Shown here: positions 32,032 through 58,874 of the stretch, one piece after another | Layout of the letters: each line of letters starts with the position of its first letter | How positions within the stretch are numbered: the stretch's first letter is position 1 | Origin: Methylobacterium sp. Leaf117 | GTDB lineage: Bacteria; Pseudomonadota; Alphaproteobacteria; Rhizobiales; Beijerinckiaceae | Length of the DNA stretch: 64,000 nt | Reading direction: 5' to 3' | NCBI RefSeq assembly: GCF_001422985.1 | Contig: NZ_LMNL01000037.1 | Location: 225,332 to 289,331, forward strand | The notes under the pieces: generated by a model | Seen by the model: only the letters and a program-made list of their open reading frames with translations | The model's database searches: none | What the model was told of the DNA's origin: nothing | Position numbers and translations under genes: made by a program

Positions 32032-32171
32032 GACGGGGGGCGGGTGGGTCGACGCCCCGGCAACTCTCAGACTGCCGCGTGCTCCCTGTGGGATGACGAA
32101 CTTCGCACGTTGCGCGGGAAGGGAGGGTCGCCTCTCCTTTCAGGCAGGGCGATCGCATATGGTGGCGCGTC

Positions 32172-32284
32172 GTCATTCCGGGGCGCCGCAGGCGAGCCCG
32201 GAATCCAGAGCCGCCGATGGTGTAAAGTCTTGCACCCCTTACGTTTCTGGATCCCGGGCTCCGCTGCGCGGCCCCGGGATGACG
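32172..32284. repeat. REP-like palindrome pair, locus 1
   Basis: A form-A element (begins GTCATTCCGGGGCGCC, ends CCCGGAATCCAGA) is followed after about 37 nt by an inverted form-B element (CTGGATCCCGGGCTCCG ... CCCCGGGATGACG). Each is a near-perfect imperfect palindrome of about 38 nt. The pair lies in the 474-nt trmFO/transporter gap. The rest of that gap shows no gene. Confidence 0.85.
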
Positions 32285-39876: not shown

Positions 39877-39942
39877 GATCGGTCTTTCGGCGATGAGGTC
39901 GAACGGAGGCCCGATGATCGCACACGCTGCCCCGGGCTCGGC

Positions 39943-40054
39943 GTCATTCCGGGGCGCCGAAGGCGAACCCGGAATCCAGAACCACGGATGGCGCCGGTCC
40001 TGCCGCGTCGGTGCGTCTGGATCCCGGACTCCGCTTCGCGGCCCCGGGATGACG
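39943..40054. repeat. REP-like palindrome pair, locus 2
   Basis: Form A at 39943-39980 and inverted form B at about 40014-40054, separated by about 34 nt, in the 310-nt gap between secD and secF. The rest of the gap contains short GAACGGCAG-type direct repeats (about 40138-40195) and no gene. The insertion splits an operon that is usually contiguous. Confidence 0.85.
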
Positions 40055-56465: not shown

Positions 56466-56530
56466 GTGCCGACCTGCGGAGCGCAAAACCCTCCCTCTGC
56501 GGGCAGTGCGATTGCATAGGACAGCGCACC

Positions 56531-56670
56531 GTCATTCCGGGGCGCCGCAGGCGAACCCGGACCCGAAGGGGCGCGCCGGAGGCGCGCGATCCAGAGCCGC
56601 CGACAGTGTCGAGTCTTGCGCCACCTGCGTTTCTGGATCCCGGGCTCCGCTGCGCGGCCCTGGGATGACG
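56531..56670. repeat. REP-like palindrome pair, locus 4
   Basis: Form A (56531-56596, enlarged by an inserted GCGCGCCGGAGGCGCGC-type segment) and inverted form B (56631-56670) in the 317-nt aapJ-aapQ gap. No gene in the remainder. Confidence 0.8.
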
Positions 56671-57814: not shown

Positions 57815-57892
57815 GCGCGCATTGCAGGGCATCGCGCGCCGGGGTCAAGCCGGGGACGATCCCGTGTGCCCCGAGTCATCCGACCCAACCCC

Positions 57893-57927
57893 GTCATTCC
57901 GGGGCGCCGCAGGCGAGCCCGGAATTA
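57893..57927 (+). repeat. REP-like form A, left end of GIY-YIG cassette 1
   Basis: Begins GTCATTCCGGGGCGCC and ends CCCGGAATTAAGA. It is preceded by CATCCGACCCAACCCC, the same 16 nt that precede the left end of cassette 2. Confidence 0.85.
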
Positions 57928-57973
57928 AGATGCGCGCGGCTGGGCCATCAGCCGCAACCTCCGTGAGGTGGTC

Positions 57974-58270
57974 TCACAGGGCGAGGCTCGCCGTCAGATC
58001 GGACCAATCCGGGTTGGCCTCCTCGATCAATCGGATCTTCCAGTCGCGGCGCCAAGTCTTGAGCGCCTTCTCGCGCTGAATCGCCTCGATGGCCCGTTCA
58101 TAGAGTTCGTACCAGACCAGGCGATCGACCTCGTACCGCGCCGTGAATCCGGCCGGTCGCTTCGCCTTGTGCTCATGGACACGACGCGCCAGGTCGTTCG
58201 TCACACCGATATACAGCGTGCCGTGCCGCCGGCTCGCGAGCATGTAGACGGCGAAAGGCATGGCGGTCAT
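57974..58270 (-). CDS. Single-domain GIY-YIG nuclease inside a REP-flanked cassette
   Basis: A 98-aa protein: AVYMLASRRHGTLYIGVTND (the GIY-YIG core as VYM...YIG), LARRVHEHKAKRPAGFT (Arg and His of the active site) and AIQREKALKTWRRDWKIRLI (the metal-binding Glu, then the K-W-R helix). The whole length is the nuclease fold, with no DNA-binding domain. Inverted REP-like elements lie 47 nt to the left and 72 nt to the right, and a hairpin GCGGCTG-GGCCAT-CAGCCGC follows the stop. Its biological role is unknown; mobility is inferred. Confidence 0.9.
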   Translation of the reverse strand: MTAMPFAVYMLASRRHGTLYIGVTNDLARRVHEHKAKRPAGFTARYEVDRLVWYELYERAIEAIQREKALKTWRRDWKIRLIEEANPDWSDLTASLAL

Positions 58271-58341
58271 CGCAGGGTAGAGCGGGTCAATGATGCGCCG
58301 ATCGTACGGCTGCGCCAGCGCTTCTTCGAGCCCAGTCGCGG

Positions 58342-58381
58342 TTCTAGATTCCGGGCTCGCCTCCGGCGCCCCGGAATGACG
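58342..58381 (-). repeat. REP-like form A inverted, right end of GIY-YIG cassette 1
   Basis: TTCTAGATTCCGGGCTCGCC...CCCGGAATGACG, the reverse complement form of the left element, closing the roughly 490-nt cassette. Confidence 0.85.
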
Positions 58382-58464
58382 GGATTGACAGTGGAATCAC
58401 GTCAACGCCCCATCCAAACGTCTCCAGCCAGCGCAAGCTCACATCCGCCATCCGACCCAACCCC

Positions 58465-58502
58465 GTCATTCCGGGGCGCCGAAGGCGAGCCCGGAATCCA
58501 GA
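58465..58502 (+). repeat. REP-like form A, left end of decayed cassette 2
   Basis: Preceded by the same CATCCGACCCAACCCC as cassette 1 and followed by the same GCGCGCGGCTGGGCCATCAG stretch that lies 3' of the intact nuclease gene. Confidence 0.85.
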
Positions 58503-58544
58503 CGCGCGCGGCTGGGCCATCAGCCGCAACCTCCGTGACACCGT

Positions 58545-58690
58545 CCGATCGCTTCGCCTTGTGCTGGTGAATGCGGCGGGCGGTCGTTCGTCACGCCCAT
58601 CGACAGCGTGCCGTGTCGTCCGCTCGCGAGCATGGAGACGGGATAGGGCGTCGACCGTCGATCGTGCAGCTGCGCCAGCGATGTTTCGGA
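58545..58690 (-). pseudogene. Decayed GIY-YIG nuclease remnant
   Basis: The plus strand here resembles the intact cassette at several points: TCGCTTCGCCTTGTGCT, GTCGTTCGTCAC, ACAGCGTGCCGTG, GCTCGCGAGCATG and GCTGCGCCAGCG appear in the same order as in 58150-58315. The C-terminal half of the gene is missing and the frame is broken. Together with its REP ends (58465-58502, 58719-58758) it is an internally deleted copy of the same cassette. Confidence 0.75.
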
Positions 58691-58718
58691 ATCCTGTGCG
58701 ATTCAAAATCCCCTGCGG

Positions 58719-58758
58719 TTCTGGATTCCGGGCTCGCTTGCGGCGCCCCGGAATGACG
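58719..58758 (-). repeat. REP-like form A inverted, right end of decayed cassette 2
   Basis: TTCTGGATTCCGGGCTCGCT...CCCGGAATGACG closes the second, shorter cassette (about 310 nt in all) upstream of metC. Confidence 0.85.
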
Positions 58759-58874
58759 GGTTTGGTTCGACGGCGGACGCGGTTCCACCTCTGACCCAGC
58801 GCCCGCCCGGCTTGACGCCGGCGCGTGCGGCGGGCTTCGGTCGCCGCACGCTCACCCCTCGCCCGCCGGTACCG

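Follow-up and report, generated by a model that had tools for sequence, protein, structure and literature searches.

Introduction

The CGTC superfamily of REPs, the GIY-YIG nucleases, and the systems in which REPs are paired with a RAYT enzyme are all already known. As described in the survey of Di Nocera et al. (2013; PMC3733652), CGTC REPs carry the sequence CGTC (or TGTC, or CCTC) unpaired at one end, followed by a stem of 8-9 bp that starts with AT, and enclose loops that are usually 4-5 nt long, with other lengths in some species. They frequently end in a CCA tail, occur as head-to-head pairs, and are found mainly in the Alphaproteobacteria, although the survey places them in every order of that class and in five phyla (PMC3733652). 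The same source identifies the Neisseria dRS3 repeat as a CGTC-1 REP, and comments that CGTC REPs “apparently lack a dedicated transposase”; a word search of its text did not return the term “GIY” (PMC3733652).

Here we describe a locus within a window of 64,000 nucleotides, by which we mean the whole stretch of DNA that was analysed, in which a GIY-YIG gene lies between REPs of this kind. Enzymes with the GIY-YIG domain hydrolyse DNA, and we know of no strand-joining activity in this domain. One family of them, Ssn, is said to consist of site-specific single-stranded nucleases associated with the NTS repeats of Neisseria, and work reportedly published in Nature Communications in 2025 is said to have linked the Neisseria nuclease both to its repeated target and to transformation. 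The NTS repeat is itself reportedly a REP of the CGTC-1 kind, like dRS3. To our knowledge, the Ssn work did not extend to mobility, deletion derivatives or one-REP alleles. The original prediction for this locus regarded the RAYT transposase as the only well-described REP-linked enzyme, a statement that overlooks the Ssn family.

Results

An intact GIY-YIG cassette and its decayed neighbour

The first of two adjacent cassettes (cassette 1; Table 1) contains an intact open reading frame encoding 98 aa, in which GIY-YIG is the sole Pfam domain (PF01541; E 7.7e-16). As had been predicted, this gene lies between inverted REPs, embedded in arms of 51 nt that are 88% complementary (57886-57936 and 58337-58387). 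Across a 35-row alignment, residues Y9, Y20, R30, E67 and N86 are invariant, and we take the tyrosines, arginine, glutamate and asparagine to be the GIY-YIG catalytic residues; H34 is also conserved in the cassette nuclease. The AlphaFold2 model of the protein has a mean pLDDT of 91.8, and a Foldseek search with this model ranked UPF0213 (1zg2; E 1.8e-3) first and Slx1 (6seh; E 2.7e-3) second, with no match at E <= 0.001. The former was also matched in a profile comparison (E 4.2e-8), and both solved structures have the GIY-YIG fold in common with the cassette nuclease.

The host genome (G000) has two matches to PF01541, one being the cassette gene and the other lying in an open frame of 716 residues, probably that of UvrC. 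The cassette nuclease gene is present in a single intact copy. A profile search of the same genome found no match to Y1_Tnp (PF01797), the RAYT-type domain, and a RAYT was therefore rejected as the mover in this host.

Approximately 70 nt beyond the right arm of cassette 1 begins a second copy, with inverted arms of 55 nt that are 89% complementary (58453-58507 and 58715-58769). The 180-nt block missing from this copy corresponds to positions 57967-58146 of cassette 1, and CCGTGA flanks the junction on both sides. Additional small indels distinguish it from cassette 1, the nuclease reading frame is broken, and the match to the remaining nuclease sequence is limited to query residues 3-27 (E 0.0015). 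Hence the proposal of a second cassette, with like ends and a broken nuclease remnant, holds; the accompanying claim of a common 16-nt left flank was correct as to the sharing, but not its extent, as the flank is part of a 90-nt common left end. Another neighbouring pair of intact and decayed GIY-YIG genes was seen at L070 (G125:C151:74546-75563), where two homologues lie within ~1 kb, and the second contains two stop codons.

Table 1. Positions of the cassettes, their REPs and the gene-less REP pairs within the window
Feature	Position	Strand	Basis
Single-domain GIY-YIG nuclease gene, intact, 98 aa	57974..58270	-	Pfam; alignment; AlphaFold2
Cassette 1 left REP, CGTC-tagged, tag outwards	57892..57928	+	Sequence, re-derived REP match
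Cassette 1 right REP, CGTC-tagged, inverted, tag outwards	58345..58381	-	Sequence, re-derived REP match
Second copy: ends as cassette 1, 180-nt internal deletion, broken nuclease remnant	58449..58769	.	Comparison with cassette 1
90-nt left end common to cassette 1 and second copy	57877..57966	+	86/90 positions identical
Second copy left REP	58464..58500	+	Re-derived REP match
Second copy right REP	58722..58758	-	Re-derived REP match
Heterodimeric REP pair (REPIN-like), same REP family, gene-less	32171..32284	.	Matches G000:C37:257502, 257577
Heterodimeric REP pair, same REP family, gene-less	39942..40054	.	Matches G000:C37:265273, 265342
Heterodimeric REP pair, longer spacer, gene-less	56530..56670	.	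REP match

The REP family in the window and host genome

REP matches re-derived from the sequence span 57892-57926 (+) and 58346-58381 (-) in cassette 1, and 58464-58499 (+) and 58723-58758 (-) in the second copy. Each of these four REPs starts with CGTC as an unpaired tag, followed by an 8-bp stem that starts with AT (ATTCCGGG / CCCGGAAT). The loop is 13 nt long and contains an inner CGCC/GGCG stem, rather than being of the 4-5 nt usual in the superfamily, and loops of 4 nt are present in other GIY-YIG flanks (56 distinct 27-mers, from the strict hairpin finder used below). Both REPs of the second copy have the tail CCA, while those of cassette 1 have CTA and TAA.

A strict REP pattern has 13 copies in the 5.32-Mb host genome, and as three of these 13 lie within ~600 nt at the cassettes, the clustering of REPs at this locus is not a matter of chance. 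The three gene-less REP pairs in the window each combine one ATTCCGGGG half with one ATCCC half, whereas both cassettes have two ATTCCGGGG halves, such that one REP form occurs at both ends. The family noted elsewhere in the window is present there as heterodimeric pairs of two REP forms. On another contig of the host genome (L175:1030-1139, on C1), a lone cassette right end matches window positions 58283-58387 with 97% identity across 105 nt, and sits between direct repeats of other DNA.

Inverted repeats frame GIY-YIG homologues in many bacteria

Homologues of the nuclease were detected at E <= 1e-15 in 75 of the 149 genomes searched (host included), with between one and five copies per carrying genome. 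Each was assigned a bracket score, that of the best inverted repeat framing the gene, with a threshold of at least 20. At the level of the order, 114 places were found, 110 distinct places were analysed, and 108 were scored, with three places near contig ends, the second tandem copy at L070 and two unscored contig-start loci being left out. A second set from named genomes consisted of the best 80 of at least 587 matches, chosen by the motif GTLY[VI]GVT, of which 78 were scorable; according to record titles, it spans the Omnitrophota, Nitrospirae, Planctomycetes, Chloroflexi, Patescibacteria, Elusimicrobia and several proteobacterial classes. The two sets have one gene in common (L136 and L222 being one locus).

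The threshold was reached by 69/108 order-level homologues (37/52 in the window's genus, and 32/56 in other genera), compared with 0/2000 random placements, which reached a maximum of 19.5 and are non-independent, being drawn from just twenty 20-kb stretches. It was also reached by 44/78 named-genome homologues, compared with 8/2000 placements that pool the named and IMG/VR loci and are likewise non-independent, and by 14 of the 20 IMG/VR loci (L269-L288). Some gene ends in the named and IMG/VR sets were set by default, with an error of up to ~15 nt, and using default ends throughout brings 45 named brackets to the threshold instead of 44. The IMG/VR contigs that carry GIY-YIG genes with bracketing repeats may be of either viral or host origin.

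The bracketing repeats are very different in sequence from genome to genome. Nevertheless, 50 of the 69 order-level brackets had the tag [CT]GTCNT in each arm, and 55 had it in at least one; neither arm contained it in the remaining 14, in which some arms start inside the tag and others belong to another kind of repeat. Long inverted repeats of another kind (~50-110 nt), with no clear CGTC tag, were seen at the own-genus loci L042, L081, L061 and L096. Below the bracket threshold were 39/108 order-level and 34/78 named homologues, some of which have one-sided REPs or two unlike REPs, and some of which (e.g. L054) have none.

A strict CGTC-hairpin finder, applied within 200 nt of each gene, detected hairpins on both sides of 45/74 named loci, as against 0/2000 placements, and on at least one side of 66/74, as against 99/2000. 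The two-sided arrangement was found at 20/107 order-level loci, compared with 0/2200 and 0/2000 placements, this figure being low because the type-B REP, with its short stem, escapes the strict finder. The nearest REPs had their tags outward at 31/45 two-sided named loci, and at 9/20 order-level loci. These results supersede those of a looser hairpin finder (two-sided at 46/111 loci, with 102/4000 in the control).

Such framing might be a by-product of REPs merely collecting in intergenic DNA beside small, dispensable genes, and the strict finder did place REPs on one side or both of 30/140 genes neighbouring the named loci. However, it detected two-sided framing at only 1/140 of these neighbours, and 0/277 genes in the 20-kb stretches, in contrast to 45/74 of the nuclease loci. 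Similarly, the bracket score reached 20 in 2/140 neighbours, 0/277 genes in the 20-kb stretches, and 0/51 small genes among the latter. As the presence of the gene also tracks REP abundance, as detailed below, this explanation is barely credible. Chance brackets were rejected by the random-placement and gene-based controls, and a purely local oddity by the framed homologues found across many phyla and among the IMG/VR contigs. Therefore the expectation that REPs would frame these genes more often than random positions, and more often than unrelated small genes, was borne out in a form of the test originally proposed.

REP abundance follows the type-matched gene

Four REP types (M, B, P1 and P2) were counted across the 149 genomes, with no mismatches tolerated in the genome-wide counts, and 2-3 tolerated in typing the gene flanks. 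The nuclease gene was present in 33/35 genomes with at least 10 copies of any REP type, compared with 42/114 others, and within the window's genus in 21/23 REP-rich genomes (again with at least 10 copies), compared with 21/66 of the rest; the cut-off at 10 copies was chosen arbitrarily, with five giving a similar picture, and the Fisher statistics relating gene to REP abundance ignore shared ancestry. Among genomes in which the gene has a given REP type on both sides, at least 10 copies of that type were counted in 9/15 for type M (3/134 others), 12/15 for type B (7/134 others), 4/5 for type P1 (0/144 others) and 6/8 for type P2 (1/141 others), a comparison in which a REP-rich genome would have more REPs beside any gene. 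The comparison based on gene presence is unaffected by this bias. Hence REP abundance follows the type-matched gene, with exceptions, among them G008 and G062, which have at least 10 type M copies and no homologue at the threshold used, and the seven genomes that are rich in type B despite having no gene with two-sided type-B flanks. Alongside the lack of a Y1_Tnp match in the host, this pattern supports the view that the partner of these REPs is the nuclease, rather than a RAYT.

Variation between sites

The 52 own-genus loci fall at 19 sites, as defined by BLAST clustering of their flanks, which may split or merge a few (L083, for instance, has one flank common to L088/L091). Movement is thus a rare event, and the gene seems to be inherited vertically for the most part. 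At the window's site, the gene is also found in G003 and G048, whereas G001 has the left end only, followed by a ~4-kb stretch of other DNA in which there are long ORFs. In G004, G034, G008, G006 and G030, the flanks are present, with no gene or cassette-REP match between them. By eye, the cassette-less alleles L169-L171 (G004, G034 and G008) contain a different head-to-head hairpin pair, of the CTCATCCTGAGG type, and therefore the window's site may attract palindromic repeats.

At another site, G050 has the arrangement REP-gene-inverted REP-REP, and G087, G038 and G063 align with it along the full length, whereas G002, G082 and G010 have one REP, the tag of which is degenerate in G082. The flanks in G002 are 97% and 94% identical to those in G050. 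When ordered by flank identity, occupied and one-REP alleles are intermixed, and the unit has therefore probably undergone more than one loss or gain, from REP to REP. The one-REP empty alleles, which are the cleanest, are explained equally well by insertion and by loss between direct REP copies. Two 149-nt REP pairs, alike at 144/149 positions, flank the gene in G003, and their spacer resembles the cassette DNA upstream of the gene (score 29, whereas 300 shuffles gave at most 18). In G003 at least, REP pairs therefore have the appearance of cassette deletion derivatives, and related pairs of similar length, with 72-79% identity, are present elsewhere in that genome. The anticipated site variation is therefore evident, as empty and occupied alleles differ between species. 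The original prediction also held that the nuclease maintains or spreads the REPs, of which the link between the two stands, while the spreading is interpretive, with the genes mostly at fixed sites.

This mostly fixed-site inheritance might instead reflect a host function like that of Ssn, in which a site-specific nuclease for single-stranded DNA has the REPs as targets through which DNA uptake or recombination is regulated, the REPs being gathered by selection or regulation around a unit that is not mobile. We consider this a possibility of some substance, though short of even, as it would suit both the single intact copy in the host genome and the reported tie between the Neisseria Ssn nuclease, a repeated target and transformation. 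It sits less comfortably with the deletion derivative at the window's locus, the cassette-like REP pairs in G003, the 19 sites in one genus, the empty alleles differing by a REP-to-REP unit, and the occurrence of the gene across many phyla and among the IMG/VR contigs.

Also less likely than not, in our view, is a homing-type mobility, in which the nuclease would cut gene-less REPs or REP pairs, and repair from the cassette would copy in the gene between them. The one-REP alleles of G002, G082 and G010 accord with this when set against the occupied alleles of G050, G087, G038 and G063, as does the frequent placement of the gene inside a tag-out REP pair, the arrangement of the gene-less REP pairs. 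Yet those one-REP alleles fit recombinational loss between direct REP copies equally well, and the empty alleles at the window's site, in G004, G034, G008, G006 and G030, contain no match to the cassette REPs or the gene.

It is improbable that the unit is a classical IS-like transposon, in which the REP ends would serve as terminal inverted repeats for the action of the GIY-YIG protein, or of a transposase of the host. No target-site duplication was seen when empty sites were compared by eye, gene copy number is between one and five per carrying genome, and GIY-YIG enzymes are generally understood to hydrolyse DNA, with no strand joining known to us, all of which weigh against the inverted ends (exceeding 100 nt at some loci), the copy with an internal deletion, and the third, partial end at L175 elsewhere in the host genome.

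Discussion

We conclude that this locus is probably a REP-delimited nuclease cassette, in which the GIY-YIG nuclease is the dedicated partner of a dispersed CGTC REP family, cutting REPs that are then maintained and copied through repair, and so fills the role taken by the unrelated RAYT transposase among GTAG-tagged REPs. Directly supporting this reading are the framing of the gene, the match in REP type, the variable sites, the one-REP alleles, the deletion derivative and the conserved catalytic residues. From these, we infer that the nuclease binds and cuts the REP, that its substrate is single-stranded, and that repair drives the spreading. The data therefore suggest that the nuclease is the missing partner enzyme of a very common bacterial repeat family.

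The proposed mechanism would begin with the nuclease recognising the REP hairpin, either extruded or in single-stranded DNA, and cutting at or near it. The resulting breaks would be mended using a further REP or the cassette as the source, and such repair could preserve REP copies and REP pairs across the genome, while occasionally copying or removing the gene that lies between REPs. Copies with internal deletions, of which the second copy in the window is an example, would then be non-autonomous relatives of the cassette. As no end joining by GIY-YIG enzymes is known to us, spreading would need host repair, and “transposase” would be the wrong word for this nuclease.

More broadly, CGTC REPs may be the non-autonomous clients of pan-bacterial selfish elements, the sole enzyme of which would be a hydrolytic GIY-YIG nuclease of ~100 aa, with transposase-free nicking and host repair copying or losing the REP pairs and the gene, in a system that evolved independently of RAYTs. 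We place this generalisation only slightly below an even chance. Many nuclease genes carry their predicted target at their own ends, providing many ready nuclease and repeat pairs for direct testing, and the prospect of small nucleases with predictable, differing hairpin targets.

The closest comparison is with Ssn, which is reportedly likewise a small, single-domain GIY-YIG protein of ~100 aa that has a multicopy cognate repeat. An overlap between the two is likely. GIY-YIG homing endonucleases of the I-TevI type resemble the cassette nuclease in their catalytic domain, and in the idea of cutting empty sites; the cassette differs in having no intron, in encoding a 98-aa protein without a separate DNA-binding domain, and in its presumed target being a dispersed hairpin repeat. 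Terminal inverted repeats are common to the cassette and the classical IS elements.

The cassette REPs are like the CGTC superfamily in their tag, stem and AT start, and differ in their longer loop; the superfamily is enzyme-less in the published account of these repeats, whereas here a GIY-YIG gene lies inside the REP frame (PMC3733652). Hence one gene family is now pointed to for repeats that were left without an enzyme in that account of 2013 (PMC3733652). A link between GIY-YIG genes and CGTC REPs was not found among the matches listed in literature searches, the coverage of which was incomplete, making this weak evidence of absence, and a word search for “GIY” returned nothing from PMC12306157, PMC5082802 or PMC5896051. 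Among the same matches, what appears to be new is the association of CGTC REPs and a GIY-YIG gene in a REP-delimited, sometimes mobile unit.

The cassette gene is flanked by a genome-dispersed REP family, as in a REPtron, and encodes a GIY-YIG protein, rather than a Y1 HUH transposase. As described in the literature on the RAYT/REPIN systems, the likeness extends to the REP-flanked gene, the dispersed REP pairs that are likely to be non-autonomous clients, and the match between the REP type and the resident gene (PMC2817692, PMC3116915, PMC3733652). The difference lies in the components, with RAYT/REPIN systems combining a Y1 HUH enzyme with a GTAG tag, and the cassette combining a GIY-YIG enzyme with a CGTC tag. 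Hence, if our reading is true, REP systems would have arisen at least twice, with unrelated enzymes.
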